64,000 nucleotides of DNA, from contig JACQXX010000045.1 in assembly GCA_016208495.1 (NCBI GenBank), forward strand, positions 1-64,000, in the 5' to 3' direction. The first letter of the stretch is position 1, and each line of letters begins with the position of its first letter. Under the pieces are notes generated by a model. The model did not search any database. It was not told the DNA's origin and saw only the letters and a list, made by a program, of their open reading frames with translations. Origin of the DNA: Acidobacteriota bacterium. GTDB taxonomy: Bacteria > Acidobacteriota > Blastocatellia > Chloracidobacteriales > Chloracidobacteriaceae. This document shows, in pieces, positions 33,128 through 46,611 of the stretch. The position numbers and the translations under genes are program-made.

Positions 33128-34225
33128 ATGTCGAGTCCACTACCAAAGCGAATTTTTAATTTCAGCGCCGGCCCGGCCATCATGCCAGTGTCCGTGCTGG
33201 AGCAAATCCGTGACGAAATGATGTCGTTGCCCGGCGTCGGCATGTCCGTTCTGGAAATCAGCCATCGGTCAAAAGTGTTTGATGAAATCATTCAAACAGC
33301 CGAAGCCAAACTCCGCAGCCTGATGGGGATCCCTGACAATTACCACGTGCTGTTTTTGCAGGGCGGCGCCAGTTTGCAATTCTCAATGGTGCCGATCAAC
33401 CTGCTGCCGGCCAACGGTTCTGCCGACTACATTGTAACCGGCGTCTGGTCGGAAAAGGCGGTCAAGGAAGCCAAAAAGGTCGGCACGGTGAAAACGGCTG
33501 GCACCACGAAAGCCGAGAACTTTTCGCGCATCCCGAATCAGTCAGAATTAACCCTCGACCCGGATGCCGCCTATGTGCATTTCACCTCCAACAATACAAT
33601 TTTTGGAACTGAATGGCGCACCGAACCCGAAGTTGGCAACGTGCCACTGATTTGCGACGCCTCGTCTGACATTCTGAGCCGACCGGTTGATGTTTCAAAG
33701 TATGGGATGATTTATGCCGGTGCCCAGAAGAACATTGGTCCTTCAGGAGTAACGCTGGTCATTGTGCGTGATGACTTGCTGGCGAGAATTCCTGACGGGC
33801 TGCATACCATGCTGGACTACCGGACCCACGTCAAAGACAAGTCGCTCTATAACACACCCCCAACCTTTGGGATTTATGTGATTGGACTGGTAGCGAAGTG
33901 GCTGGAAGGACTGGGCGGACTGGCAGCGATGGAGAAGATGAATCAAGAAAAAGCCGGTATTCTCTATGATGCGATTGATGCCTCTGAGTTCTATCGTGGA
34001 ACGGCTGACAAAAACAGCCGCTCACTGATGAATGTCTGCTTCCGTCTGCCAAGTGAAGAGCTTGAAAAAGACCTCATCAAACAGGCAACCGCCGCTGGGT
34101 TTGATGGGTTGAAAGGCCATCGGTCAGTCGGCGGTCTGCGGGCTTCGATTTACAACGCGTTCCCGAAAGAAGGTGTGGCCGCGCTGGTTGAATTTATGAA
34201 GGAATTTGAGCGGAAACATGCTTAG
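33128..34225 (+). CDS. serC: Phosphoserine aminotransferase SerC
   Basis: A 365-residue class V aminotransferase. It converts 3-phosphohydroxypyruvate and glutamate to O-phosphoserine and 2-oxoglutarate, the second step of serine synthesis; the family also works in pyridoxal phosphate synthesis. Visible hallmarks are NFSAGPA at the N-terminus, LFLQGGASLQF, the pyridoxal-phosphate Lys201 in YAGAQKNIGPSG and the C-terminal GHRSVGGLRASIYNA. The length is normal. A GAAGGAG ribosome site precedes the ATG. It is monocistronic, and serA and serB are not in the window. Confidence 0.97.
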   Translation: MSSPLPKRIFNFSAGPAIMPVSVLEQIRDEMMSLPGVGMSVLEISHRSKVFDEIIQTAEAKLRSLMGIPDNYHVLFLQGGASLQFSMVPINLLPANGSADYIVTGVWSEKAVKEAKKVGTVKTAGTTKAENFSRIPNQSELTLDPDAAYVHFTSNNTIFGTEWRTEPEVGNVPLICDASSDILSRPVDVSKYGMIYAGAQKNIGPSGVTLVIVRDDLLARIPDGLHTMLDYRTHVKDKSLYNTPPTFGIYVIGLVAKWLEGLGGLAAMEKMNQEKAGILYDAIDASEFYRGTADKNSRSLMNVCFRLPSEELEKDLIKQATAAGFDGLKGHRSVGGLRASIYNAFPKEGVAALVEFMKEFERKHA

Positions 34226-34231
34226 GAAGCC

Positions 34232-34388
34232 GGGTTCGGGGTTCGGGGTTCGGGGTTCGGGGTTCCGGGTTTTTGAAAGGATACTCTTTATCGTTTTTTC
34301 AAAACCCTGAACCCTGAACCCTGAACCCTGAACCCTGGTTTTCAAACCCTGAACCCTGGTTTTCAAACCCTGAACCCTGGTTTTCAAC
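34232..34388. repeat. Heptamer arrays GGGTTCG and ACCCTGA forming a hairpin
   Basis: Five GGGTTCG-type heptamers (34232-34266) are followed by a 37-bp spacer and about ten ACCCTGA/ACCCTGG-type heptamers (34304-34388), in part as 14-bp double units with TTTTCAA. The two blocks are roughly complementary, so the transcript between serC and the convergent gene can fold into a long stem. Confidence 0.85.
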
Positions 34389-34396
34389 CCCAATTC

Positions 34397-37908: not shown

Positions 37909-38844
37909 TTATTTGAATTCTCGCCGCAGATATCCGATCAGGTCGGAAAAACTCGTGCCATGAAAGTGATGGGGAAAATGGGCGCGGATATCAGGATCCT
38001 CAAAGGCGGCCCCACCAATAATGATCCGAGTTCCCAGGGCTTCGGCCCGTTCCCAGCAAACTTTATAATCACGCCGCAAATGTTCCAAATTAGACAAAAT
38101 CGTGGCTGATAAACACAGAATCGCTGGTTGAAACCGGTTGAGCGCATCAGAAATTGAGTGAACCGGGGTATTGGCCCCGGCCACAATCACCCGCCAGCCA
38201 TCAGATTCAAGCGTTTGGGTCAGCCAGTGAAGTGCAATTTCGTGGAAATCGCCTTCAAGACAGGCACACAATGCTGACTTCCCATGTTCGGATTTGTGTG
38301 GCACCAGGTAATGTAAATATCTGGTGGCTGAAAGAGTTACTTGAGATGCCAGGTGTTCTTCATAGACCTGCAATTCGCCCCGTTGCCACAACCATCCGAT
38401 CTGGTGCATGACCGGGGTAATCACTTTTTCCTTGATATCCAGAATTGAATAGCCTTGCAGGTACAACCGTTGGAGAAAAATCTCAGCCAGTTTCTGACTT
38501 CCCTGAATTGCCAGTTCGAAATAGATCTGCTGGAGTGTTTTGAGTGGCGTGAACTCAGTCACCGTTTCAACTTGCTCAAGTAATTGTTGTTCCCGGCCAA
38601 AGTGATTTTCCTGAGCCTGGGCGGGCTCAGCAGCCACCAGTGACGGGATCGAGAACGAGAAGAGGTTGGATGACTTCAGGTGATTTTGTTCCTGAAATGC
38701 CATCAGAGCTTCCATTTGAAATCGGCGGTGCCCCCCAGGTGTCCGGATACACTCCAGCTTCCCACTGTCAGCCCACCGTTTAATCGTGGATTCACTGACA
38801 TTCCACATTTGAGAAACTTCCGCAGTTGAATAGGCACGCGTCAT
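37909..38844 (-). CDS. carH: CarH-type B12-dependent photoreceptor repressor
   Basis: A 311-residue protein. Residues 1-60 are a MerR-type helix-turn-helix (YSTAEVSQMWNVSESTIKRW...PGGHRRF). After a linker comes a four-helix light-sensing domain and a B12-binding Rossmann domain (about 188-308). The CarH signature W-x9-EH is present exactly: Trp153, Glu163, His164. The lower axial His201 lies in GDFHEIA, where the usual DxHxxG Gly is Ala. In CarH, adenosylcobalamin drives tetramerisation and DNA binding in the dark; light breaks the Co-C bond and releases DNA, so carotenoid genes are induced. The divergent neighbour encodes a polyprenyl synthase, a typical target. Repeated GGTCGTTTT sites lie in the shared upstream region. 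Confidence 0.85.
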   Translation of the reverse strand: MTRAYSTAEVSQMWNVSESTIKRWADSGKLECIRTPGGHRRFQMEALMAFQEQNHLKSSNLFSFSIPSLVAAEPAQAQENHFGREQQLLEQVETVTEFTPLKTLQQIYFELAIQGSQKLAEIFLQRLYLQGYSILDIKEKVITPVMHQIGWLWQRGELQVYEEHLASQVTLSATRYLHYLVPHKSEHGKSALCACLEGDFHEIALHWLTQTLESDGWRVIVAGANTPVHSISDALNRFQPAILCLSATILSNLEHLRRDYKVCWERAEALGTRIIIGGAAFEDPDIRAHFPHHFHGTSFSDLIGYLRREFK

Positions 38845-38917
38845 AGATCACCATCTTCAGGATTTGAGGAAAAACGAACCACTTGCTCCATTTCGGTATC
38901 GCCCAATAGGAAATGAT

Positions 38918-38948
38918 GGTCGTTTTGGTCGTTTTCGTTGGTCGAATT
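38918..38948. promoter_or_regulatory. Candidate CarH operator, tandem GGTCGTTTT sites
   Basis: GGTCGTTTT occurs at 38918-38926 and 38927-38935, and the variant GGTCGAATT at 38940-38948. The same 9-mer recurs at 39102-39110 inside a promoter spacer, and TGTCGTTTT at 39037-39045. Nothing else in the window has this clustering. CarH proteins bind series of direct repeats, so autoregulation is likely; binding here is an inference. Confidence 0.5.
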
Positions 38949-39090
38949 AAACCTACCAGATTCCATTTGGAGGAACAAGATGTTTTATCGGAGAGTAAGT
39001 TGGTTTAAGGCTAATTATTGTTTTTATTAGCTTTACTGTCGTTTTGCTAGAATTTGTAAGGAAGTTAGGATGATTTTAGGGAAAAGAGTG

Positions 39091-39119
39091 TTGACCGATT
39101 TGGTCGTTTTTCGTATAGT
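39091..39119 (+). promoter_or_regulatory. Sigma-70-type promoter of the polyprenyl synthase, with embedded operator copy
   Basis: TTGACC (39091-39096) and TATAGT (39114-39119) are separated by an ideal 17-base spacer. The spacer contains GGTCGTTTT (39102-39110), the same 9-mer found in tandem upstream of carH. A repressor bound here would occlude RNA polymerase. Transcription would start near 39126, leaving a leader of about 290 bases. Confidence 0.65.
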
Positions 39120-39173
39120 CAATTCATTCAATGAGCGATCTTATTGGACAGTGTCTGTAGGGAGTTCATTGCT

Positions 39174-39347
39174 GATTTGGCACATCCTACTTCTGAGTTG
39201 TAGGCTTGGAGGGATCCGGGGGGAAACTTCAGGTCTGCTGCCAACGCTTGGGGGCCTGTAGGGTGTGCCAAATCTATTTTCGGCTCCTGGTGACTGAGCA
39301 AACGACCCTGTGGGCTGGCATGCCATTGATAAATGAGGCGCCGAAAG
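39174..39347 (+). ncRNA. Structured 5' leader of the polyprenyl synthase mRNA
   Basis: GATTTGGCACATCCTAC (39174-39190) pairs with GTAGGGTGTGCCAAATC (39256-39272), one mismatch, enclosing a 65-base internal domain that can fold further. A second stem pairs about 39280-39290 (TTTCGGCTCC) with 39337-39347 (GGCGCCGAAA). I do not recognise the B12 riboswitch box or another known riboswitch consensus. It may be an unnamed cis-regulatory RNA. Confidence 0.45.
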
Positions 39348-39417
39348 CTTGTGCTTGCGAGTGCATCTGGCCCATTGTAGGATGGTGAGAATACATCACC
39401 GAGAAAAGCGGGGGACC

Positions 39418-40419
39418 ATGCGCGAACTTCTTGAAGAGCCGGGAACGATTGCCTTGATGGCAAGGGCAGAAGCCGTAGCCCGAATGATCGACAAAGAAAT
39501 CATCAAAGACATTGCCGAAGTCACACAACCACTTCTATTGGAAGCCACCACCTACCTCTTTAAAAGCGGTGGCAAACGATTACGTCCCTTTCTGGTTATC
39601 ACCTGTGCCGAAGCACTCGGCGGTGTACTGGATGATGCCATTCCGCCAGCCCTGGCCGTTGAGTACCTGCACAATTTATCGTTGATTCACGATGATATGA
39701 TGGATCACAGTGAAAAACGGCATGGTCTCCCAACGCTCCACAGCCAGTTTGGAAATCGAACCTCGCTCCTGGTGGGAGATTTGCTCTACGCCAAAGCGGT
39801 TGAACAGGCGTCTCGGGTTGCCCGGCATGCCATTCGAATGGTTGACGTGCTGGCCAAAGCCGCCAAATTGATGTGTTTAGGGCAATTTGACGACATGAGT
39901 TTTGAGACCCGGATGGAGCTGGAAATCGAAGACTATTTGATTATGGCGTCACGTAAGACATCGGCGCTCTACCGGGCAAGTTGCATCTGCGGTGTTCTGG
40001 CTGGTGATGGAACCGAAGACCAGGTCAACGCCATGGCGGTGTTTGGTGAAAAGATTGGAACGGCGTTCCAGATTTGGGATGATGTGCTGGATCTTCAGGC
40101 TGATCCGCTCCGGTTAGGCAAACCGCTTGGATTGGATATCCGCGACGGGAAAAAGACGTTGATTGTGATTCACTTCCTGAAATATGCCAAATCACCTGAA
40201 CGTGAGCAATTTCTGAAATATCTGGGCAATCCAGGCTTAACTCGTGAATTACCGGAAGCCGTCGCTTTACTTGAAGAGGCTGGTTCAATTGCGTTTGCAC
40301 GTGATATTGCCTGGAATTTGCTTGAAGACGCGAAAAAGCAACTCCATGTCCTGCCAGAATCACCAGCCCGAGACCTCCTTTATCAGTATGCTGATTTTTT
40401 GCTCCAGCGAAATTACTGA
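39418..40419 (+). CDS. Trans-polyprenyl diphosphate synthase (GGPP/octaprenyl-type)
   Basis: A 333-residue isoprenyl synthase. Both Asp-rich motifs are present: DDMMD (92-96) in HNLSLIHDDMMD and DDVLD (221-225) in FQIWDDVLD, together with GGKRLRPFLV and GDLLYAKA. It condenses isopentenyl diphosphate with allylic diphosphates. Product length cannot be set from the sequence alone: octaprenyl-type quinone side-chain synthases and GGPP synthases share these motifs. The CarH regulator next door favours a carotenoid precursor (GGPP) role. ATG 39418 is chosen; TTG at 39349 is in frame but implausible. Confidence 0.9.
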   Translation: MRELLEEPGTIALMARAEAVARMIDKEIIKDIAEVTQPLLLEATTYLFKSGGKRLRPFLVITCAEALGGVLDDAIPPALAVEYLHNLSLIHDDMMDHSEKRHGLPTLHSQFGNRTSLLVGDLLYAKAVEQASRVARHAIRMVDVLAKAAKLMCLGQFDDMSFETRMELEIEDYLIMASRKTSALYRASCICGVLAGDGTEDQVNAMAVFGEKIGTAFQIWDDVLDLQADPLRLGKPLGLDIRDGKKTLIVIHFLKYAKSPEREQFLKYLGNPGLTRELPEAVALLEEAGSIAFARDIAWNLLEDAKKQLHVLPESPARDLLYQYADFLLQRNY

Positions 40420-40609
40420 TTCAGGGCTAAAGAAAACGGGCTGAAAACATCAGGCTGAAGACTCGCAAGCTCGGGGTTGAAGAAAACGGGCTGAAGAAGT
40501 CGGGCTTGGGGCTGAAGAAGTTTGGATTGACTTCATTTTTCATTCTGCATTCCTTTGGTCACTTTCAACCCAGGAATTTGCCTCATAATTCATAATTCAT
40601 AATTCATCT
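40420..40609. repeat. Short direct repeats between polyprenyl synthase and SpoIIM-like genes
   Basis: Units such as GGGCTGAAGAA recur between about 40432 and 40530, with the phrase GAAGACTCGCAAGCTCGGGG (about 40456-40475), whose reverse complement stands near 56157-56177. Nonamers ATAATTCAT repeat three times at about 40584-40606 and run up to the next ATG, which therefore has no visible ribosome site. Confidence 0.65.
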
Positions 40610-45387: not shown

Positions 45388-46611
45388 ATGGTCTCACCAT
45401 CTGCCAGTTTGCTCCGCAAAGCAGTTCATCAGCATTCACTGACCAGCCGTCAAGGTGTGCTTGAACGAATGTTTACTGCTTTTTTTGATGGGCTGGTCTA
45501 CAACCAGATTTGGGAAGATCCGCTGGTTGATCTCGAAGCCCTGGAACTCACCTCTGACAGTCGAGTGCTGACGATTACTTCGGGTGGGTGCAATGTTCTC
45601 AATTATCTGGTTGCCCAACCGCGGTTGATTATCGGCGTGGACTTGAACCCTTATCACATGTATTTGACCCGGTTGAAGTTAACGGCGCTTGAATTCTTGC
45701 CCGACCACGAGGCGTTCTTTGAGTTTTTCGGATGTGCCAACCGATCTGAGAACGTCGCCCGGTACGATGCTTTTATAGCTCCAAACCTGGATGTCCATGC
45801 TCGTGAATATTGGGAAGGTCGCACAATCACCGGAAAACGTCGGGTCGAGGCATTTGGGACCCAATTTTATGACCATGCGCGAAACGGGTATTTCCTGCGG
45901 TTTGTAACCGGACTGGCGCATCTGCTTGGAAAACATCCTGAAAAGGTGTTAGAGGCCACATCGCTGGCTGAACAGGAACAGGTCTTTGCTACTGAAATCG
46001 CACCGTTTTTTGACAATGTGCTGGTTAAAGGATTGGCCAAACTGCCATTTCTGGTGTTTGGGCTGGGGATTCCGCCCCGACAGCTTGAAGCACTTCGCGA
46101 AGACGCCCAGGGAAATATCATCGAACTCTATCGGTCACGGGTGAAAAAGCTGACCTGTGGCTTTCCAATTGCGGAAAACTATTTTACCTGGCAGGCAATT
46201 GCCCGCCGCTACGATTGCGACCAGCGCCAGGCGATTCCGGATTATTTAAAAGCTGAGCACTATCCGGTCCTCAAAGACAACGTCAATCGAATCAAGACGG
46301 CAATCATTTCGGTTACGGAGCTTTTGAAACACCAGCCGGCGCAAAGCCTGGATCGGTTTGTGCTGCTTGATGCCCAGGAATGGATGAAGCCCGTCGAAAT
46401 CGAAGCCCTCTGGGCCGAGATTGCCCGCGTTGGTCAGCCGGGTTCACGCATTATTTTTCGAACCGCTGCCCGGAAATCCACCATCGAAGGGGTTTTGTCG
46501 CCCGAGTTGCGAAAACGATTTGTGTATGAGTCTGAACGCTCACACGACTGGTTCCAGCGAGATCGGTCTTCAATTTATGGCGGATTTCACCTCTATCGGC
46601 TGGCCGAATGA
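45388..46611 (+). CDS. btaA: BtaA, SAM:diacylglycerol 3-amino-3-carboxypropyltransferase (DUF3419)
   Basis: A 407-residue protein with the DUF3419 hallmarks VYNQIWEDPLVDLEAL, ITSGGCNVLNYL, VDLNPYHMYL and LKLTALEFLPDH near the N-terminus, and VLLDAQEWM with a later RTAARKS motif. BtaA moves the aminocarboxypropyl group of S-adenosylmethionine to diacylglycerol and makes diacylglyceryl homoserine, the first step of betaine lipid (DGTS) synthesis. Length matches bacterial BtaA (about 400-420). The next gene encodes a BtaB-like methyltransferase, which supports this reading strongly. No good ribosome site precedes ATG 45388. Confidence 0.9.
   Translation: MVSPSASLLRKAVHQHSLTSRQGVLERMFTAFFDGLVYNQIWEDPLVDLEALELTSDSRVLTITSGGCNVLNYLVAQPRLIIGVDLNPYHMYLTRLKLTALEFLPDHEAFFEFFGCANRSENVARYDAFIAPNLDVHAREYWEGRTITGKRRVEAFGTQFYDHARNGYFLRFVTGLAHLLGKHPEKVLEATSLAEQEQVFATEIAPFFDNVLVKGLAKLPFLVFGLGIPPRQLEALREDAQGNIIELYRSRVKKLTCGFPIAENYFTWQAIARRYDCDQRQAIPDYLKAEHYPVLKDNVNRIKTAIISVTELLKHQPAQSLDRFVLLDAQEWMKPVEIEALWAEIARVGQPGSRIIFRTAARKSTIEGVLSPELRKRFVYESERSHDWFQRDRSSIYGGFHLYRLAE

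Follow-up and report, generated by a model that had tools for sequence, protein, structure and literature searches.

A regulator of the CtMerR type, encoded in the 64,000-nucleotide stretch of acidobacterial DNA analysed here (the window), probably represses both its own gene and a light-induced structured RNA; the latter is likely a small RNA, and the polyprenyl diphosphate synthase gene beyond it would be transcribed mainly from a second promoter. The orthology of the regulator, the gene pair, the operators, the covariation in the RNA and the second promoter were all computed. The locus comprises the following features:

37909..38844, minus strand: predicted CtMerR-type B12 photoreceptor and repressor (311 aa; domain and homology evidence)
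38917..38934, plus strand: predicted operator O1, tandem 9-bp half-sites TGGTCGTTT-TGGTCGTTT just downstream of the regulator -10, with spacing and place the same in 10/10 family genomes
38950..38978, minus strand: predicted regulator promoter, -35 TTGTTC (38978-38973), 17-bp spacer, -10 TAGGTT (38955-38950)
39091..39119, plus strand: predicted RNA promoter, TTGACC-17-TATAGT; TTGACYGNTTTGNNCGTTTT in 10/10 family genomes
39092..39109, plus strand: predicted operator O2, tandem 9-bp half-sites TGACCGATT-TGGTCGTTT, overlapping the -35 element and filling the spacer
39170..39277, plus strand: conserved structured RNA element (fold, covariation, covariance-model search)
39275..39283, plus strand: T-rich stretch, possible terminator tail (TATTTT after the closing stem)
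39355..39383, plus strand: predicted second conserved promoter, TTGCGA-17-TAGGAT, between RNA and synthase
39418..40419, plus strand: polyprenyl (short/medium-chain isoprenyl) diphosphate synthase (domain and profile matches)

The regulator (minus strand) and the synthase (plus strand) diverge across 573 bp, and this divergent arrangement is kept in all ten genomes of the family sample, which comprises the window's genome and nine relatives (G001-G009) and spans four genera. Since seven of the ten belong to one genus, the sample amounts to four independent lineages. Within it, tblastn identity is 45-56% for the regulator and 67-75% for the synthase. A type I reaction-centre gene is present in G002-G009 and absent from the window's genome and G001; in G002-G009, too, a TPR-like gene sits between the RNA element and the synthase. 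Judged by genome structure, the reaction centre and the name CtMerR, the family is probably Chloracidobacteriaceae.

The regulator and its relatives

The regulator open reading frame contains the domains HTH_17, B12-binding_2 and B12-binding, that is, a BldC-like winged helix-turn-helix (residues ~1-55) followed by a cobalamin-binding helical bundle and a Rossmann domain. The W-x9-EH signature and the axial histidine, on which the sequence-only reading had based its assignment to CarH-type light switches, are both present (as GWLWQRGELQVYEEH and GDFH, respectively). The fuller signature GxxW, EH, GxxH, GxxxP of light-responsive cobalamin regulators, as defined in PMC11796333, is complete in the window protein, where it reads GWLW, EEH, GDFH, GANTP.

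By far the best solved relative is CtMerR (8jbs), which aligns over residues 3-310, essentially the full length of the regulator, with an E-value of 5e-86 and an identity of ~47%. The protein encoded at the same locus in G005 is 96% identical to 8jbs (the sequence of the latter being taken from the HMMER alignment); hence, the solved protein belongs to the same locus as the window regulator. The NCBIfam model for CarH equivalogs, NF052513, gives the regulator 63 bits against a cut-off of 400. As judged from these comparisons, the window regulator is a CtMerR orthologue and not a CarH equivalog, and it adds a new photoreceptor to the CtMerR group; the earlier assignment holds in so far as a CarH-like B12 light switch is meant, but not as regards identity with CarH itself. 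A scan of genome contigs for further relatives returned distant proteobacterial ones only.

The cobalamin-binding domain of CtMerR binds AdoCbl, responds to green light and passes from a tetramer in the dark to a monomer in the light (FEBS J 2024, PMC11796333); the constructs used in these experiments lacked the DNA-binding domain. The authors described that domain as divergent and suggested "an alternative DNA-binding site"; the available text of their paper gives no target. AdoCbl binding, a dark tetramer and a light monomer may be carried over to the window regulator by analogy. The DxHxxA motif, found here as GDFHEIA in place of DxHxxG, had been thought possibly to alter cobalamin binding, a suspicion that we can dismiss: CtMerR reads GDLHEIA at this site, and, because the motif is common to an experimental AdoCbl binder, it is no sign of altered cobalamin binding and is normal for the CtMerR group. 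In an alignment with the Thermus chain, His132, the residue behind the bis-His light state, is absent from the window regulator; the corresponding position holds Q here and R in CtMerR.

When the DNA-binding domain alone was used as the query against solved structures, CtMerR came first and was followed by BldC (6amk, E 2.6e-9), and the NCBIfam BldC model NF033787 gave the regulator 55.9 bits (cut-off 77). The alignment provides counterparts in the regulator for Arg30, Trp31 and Glu16 of BldC, in a numbering based on PMC5859096 and the BldC sequence.

Predicted operators built of 9-bp direct repeats

The 9-mer GGTCGTTTT, which had been noticed twice in tandem near the regulator start and once inside a 17-bp promoter spacer, is found precisely so, at 38918, 38927 and 39102, always on the plus strand. 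Its count alone is weak and not significant: the window holds three copies against 0.92 expected, at least three copies occurred in 8 of 100 shuffles, and the 8.4-Mb genome contains 100 copies, fewer than of the backwards-read control. Searched for across the genome, which had been proposed as a check, the single 9-mer says little; the tandem form is specific to the locus: exact matches to the tandem pattern TGRNYGNTTTGRNCGTTT in the window's own genome lie only at the regulator and RNA promoters. In all ten family genomes, both promoters carry two half-sites TGRNYGNTT spaced by exactly 9 bp, save for a single mismatched base in one of the G001 half-sites. It is therefore the tandem form, unique to the locus in its exact version and conserved in 10/10 genomes, that counts, and conservation of the motif near orthologues is borne out in this form. 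The regulator promoter was recognised by eye across the ten genomes and was not reported by the promoter scan.

Further exact 18-bp operator matches amount to at most one per relative genome, and, among these extra single-genome matches (L087, L088, L090, L093, L095), there is no consistent, intergenic third target; G004 and G005 alone share one extra match, which falls within overlapping open frames. The proposal of a single-target switch is in keeping with these data, which support an operator target that would be essentially a single locus.

Distant homologues of the regulator, 27-37% identical and drawn from further families within the class or the phylum, provide an independent test of the operator. 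When the DNA upstream of these genes was searched blindly for direct repeats with a period of 8-12, period 9 with a TGAGCGnTTTGAGCGnTT-like sequence emerged in most homologues of one family (f4). Across 14 upstream regions, 14 half-site pairs were found at period 9, with at least one pair in 10 of the 14 loci; periods 5-8 and 10-15 gave no pair in these regions, and 94 kb of further DNA from these loci, used as a control, likewise contained none. The geometry of O2 recurs in promoters of the distant homologues, and in several of these loci the promoter is arranged as in the window, TTGnnCGnTTTGnnCGnTT-Tnn-TAnnnT, with the first half-site serving as the -35 element. BldC binds 9-bp direct repeats AATTxxxxC head to tail (PMC5859096), and the lower strand of the window, reading AAAACGACC AAAACGACC, fits this pattern. 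The period-9 repeats of the distant homologues, together with the match to the BldC repeat, thus give good support to a BldC-like 9-bp direct repeat as the predicted DNA target of the CtMerR class.

The surroundings of the distant homologues vary. The gene divergent from the regulator homologue encodes a secreted-looking fasciclin-domain protein in two loci (L116:2212-2721 and L121:3182-3691), and the intergenic region of L116 contains two operator-embedded promoters; at L118:1309-3077, the homologue lies near genes for a NUDIX (IPP isomerase-like) protein, a short-chain dehydrogenase and an amine-oxidase-like (CrtI-like) protein.

A structured RNA element and a predicted second promoter before the synthase

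The promoter in which O2 is embedded is a good one (TTGACC-17-TATAGT), as had been claimed; its description as the promoter of the polyprenyl synthase needs amending, as a structured RNA comes first and a second promoter follows. The RNA element, ~105 nt long, begins ~50 nt past the expected start of the transcript from the O2 promoter. Its closing stem of 17 bp (39174-39190/39258-39274) leads, via an internal loop, to a second stem of 12 pairs, and the apical stem is of the CUCC-GGGG-GGAG type, capped by GGGG; the element also has an invariant unpaired ACGCTTGGGGG. In the window, the fold scores a z of -6.1 against shuffles; in the alignment of 12 copies, 96.7% of cells are paired. Seven pairs have changed on both sides, a number reached in none of 500 shuffles, and sliding the pairing partner abolishes the signal, which rests mainly on three of the four independent lineages. 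No other non-coding stretch of the region is as well conserved as the element, and its unpaired parts are the most conserved of all.

A covariance model built from these sequences recovers the element in 10/10 family genomes, at this locus only, with E-values from 1e-13 to 1e-26; 152 further genomes of the class and 391 further ones of the phylum gave no hit. There is one copy per genome, or two in tandem in G008 and G009 (L053:7706-8022 and L054:7257-7557, period ~193-209 nt). A mobile or repeat sequence of the MITE/REP kind, trapped in the intergenic region, could be imagined from the long inverted-repeat arms of the element, but this idea is refuted by the copy number and the invariable position, and the greater conservation of the unpaired parts also speaks against it; we consider it wholly improbable.

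Rfam searches left the element without a match, at E-values up to 10 for the window and up to 1 for five homologous loci; the only matches lay off the element and were chance-like. Identity with the 6S RNA of the genome was rejected, since 6S-like matches lie elsewhere, on other contigs or positions, in nine of the ten genomes (three of these nine matches being above the curated cut-off). A simple search of the retrieved loci for complements of the candidate seed ACGCTTGGGGGG returned the element itself and scattered matches only. At L047:1746-1889, between SpoIIM and synthase genes, there is a large palindromic array of GGGAGTCTTGGGAGTC repeats, which attracts spurious Rfam miRNA matches.

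Downstream of the element and before the first gene, all ten genomes have a promoter of the form TTGnnn-17/18-TAGGAT-G, with TAGGATG present in each. As this conserved promoter precedes the synthase operon, control of the synthase by the O2 promoter is only one possibility. The reading closest to the original proposal, namely that the switch governs the supply of isoprenoid precursors by way of the synthase, with the element as a passive 5' UTR, would agree with the neighbourhood kept in 10/10 genomes, with the near-consensus, operator-bearing promoter and with carotenoid genes as the known targets of CarH (PMC9304148). The second promoter weighs against it, and a passive UTR does not explain the element, given its invariant unpaired bases and compensatory changes; we regard this reading as improbable.

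Somewhat better placed, if still rather unlikely, is a cis-acting leader, an attenuator or riboswitch-like device that would set the amount of transcription or translation arriving at the synthase in the light. The element indeed immediately precedes the synthase operon in every case and occurs nowhere else in the genome, terminator-like hairpins separate it from the gene, and it is duplicated in tandem in G008 and G009, as happens in some riboswitches; there, the second copy has no operator promoter of its own and only the first copy follows one, so that one transcript must pass the first copy. Against a leader, the second promoter can serve the operon without the element, the TPR-like gene has been inserted before the synthase in G002-G009 with the element still beside the operator promoter, and the element is confined to one family. 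The second promoter and the TPR-like insertion count in favour of a separate RNA, and so do the marks of termination, which are not uniform: the T stretch after the closing stem is weak in the window and clear (T7) in G001, and G002, G003, G006 and G007 have strong G+C hairpins after the element, in several genomes ~90 nt past its centre, with little of the kind in the window. On balance, the direct output of the facing promoter is probably the structured RNA, and we would rank a discrete light-induced small RNA, as the mildly favoured form of it, before a leader.

As to the synthase, the IdsA/GGPP models of NCBIfam match best, none of them above its own cut-off, and each genome has one further homologue. 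In G003 (L048:9017-12115), the genes next to the synthase, in convergent orientation, encode a BchP/ChlP geranylgeranyl reductase and a PUCC protein, neighbours that were not seen in the retrieved stretches of the other genomes; this adjacency makes a link to pigment synthesis plausible, at least in G003. Elsewhere in the window, degenerate repeats of GGGCTGAAGAA(AAC) directly follow the synthase stop codon (40420-40540), short tandem repeats (LKTRVQG in one translation) come after a class-V aminotransferase (SerC-like) gene (34124-34393), and a DUF3419 (BtaA-like) protein adjoins a metallophosphoesterase (45388-46611), where betaine-lipid synthesis is possible.

The proposed circuit and known light switches

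The following scheme, in which DNA binding, the sign of regulation, transcription and the mode of action of the RNA are what we infer, can be envisaged. In the dark, the regulator with bound AdoCbl would repress the two facing promoters of the single intergenic region, its BldC-like DNA-binding domains lying head to tail on the 9-bp direct repeats. O1, placed just after the regulator -10, would provide autoregulation, and O2, fused to the -35 element and spacer of the facing promoter, would exclude RNA polymerase. Green light would break the Co-C bond, the tetramer would fall apart and both promoters would open. The facing promoter would directly yield a stable, lineage-specific structured RNA of ~105 nt, whose most likely role is that of a light-induced small RNA; transcription of the synthase operon would start mainly at the second promoter, supplemented in the light by some read-through. 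Going one step further, we tentatively suggest, at close to an even chance, that the main output of this BldC-fused B12 photoreceptor is the single-copy structured small RNA, which, induced by green light, would carry the light response instead of an enzyme. The RNA is kept in both the reaction-centre-bearing and the reaction-centre-lacking members of the family.

With this scheme, CtMerR, whose crystal structure is solved and whose light response is proven, gains a predicted DNA target, an operator with 18-bp sites, within a circuit that would be autoregulated and confined to one locus. The circuit, with BldC-type 9-bp operators fused to the promoter of an undescribed structured RNA, would be a new variation on such switches. 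Should the RNA prove to be the output, it would represent a new RNA family and, as far as the literature search shows, the first case of a B12 photoreceptor that controls a structured RNA. Optogenetics, too, could profit from so compact a green-light promoter, in which the operator is built in. The terms CarH, small RNA, light-induced and cobalamin come together in one paper, which surveys signalling in the genomes of Myxococcaceae. No paper linking CarH with BldC was found in the literature.

Among known RNAs, 6S RNA (RF00013) is likewise a single-copy, hairpin-like bacterial RNA, but it sits elsewhere in nine of the ten genomes and no similarity to the element was reported. Among known regulators, CtMerR (WP_157850694; PDB 8jbs/8jbt; PMC11796333) is the nearest, having the same domains, signature residues, DxHxxA motif and locus; apart from its overall divergence, it differs in the residue after the signature Trp, the site of H132 in TtCarH. 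CarH of Thermus thermophilus and myxobacteria has the AdoCbl-binding core, W-x9-EH and the axial His in common with the window protein, and presumably also the dark tetramer and its release by light. However, the DNA-binding domain of CarH is of the MerR type and reads 11-bp repeats nnnnTnnACAn (PMC9304148), whereas that of the H132-less window regulator looks BldC-like and would recognise 9-bp repeats, the first of which doubles as the -35 element; and the known CarH targets are carotenoid genes, whereas the target predicted here is the promoter of an RNA. BldC of Streptomyces (6ama/6amk; PMC5859096), finally, resembles the regulator in the sequence of the DNA-binding domain and in the 9-bp direct repeats predicted for the latter, which combine an AT-rich 4-mer with a C 4 bp further along, but it is a 68-residue monomer without a sensor, whereas the window regulator appears to fuse a BldC-like domain to a light-gated oligomeriser.
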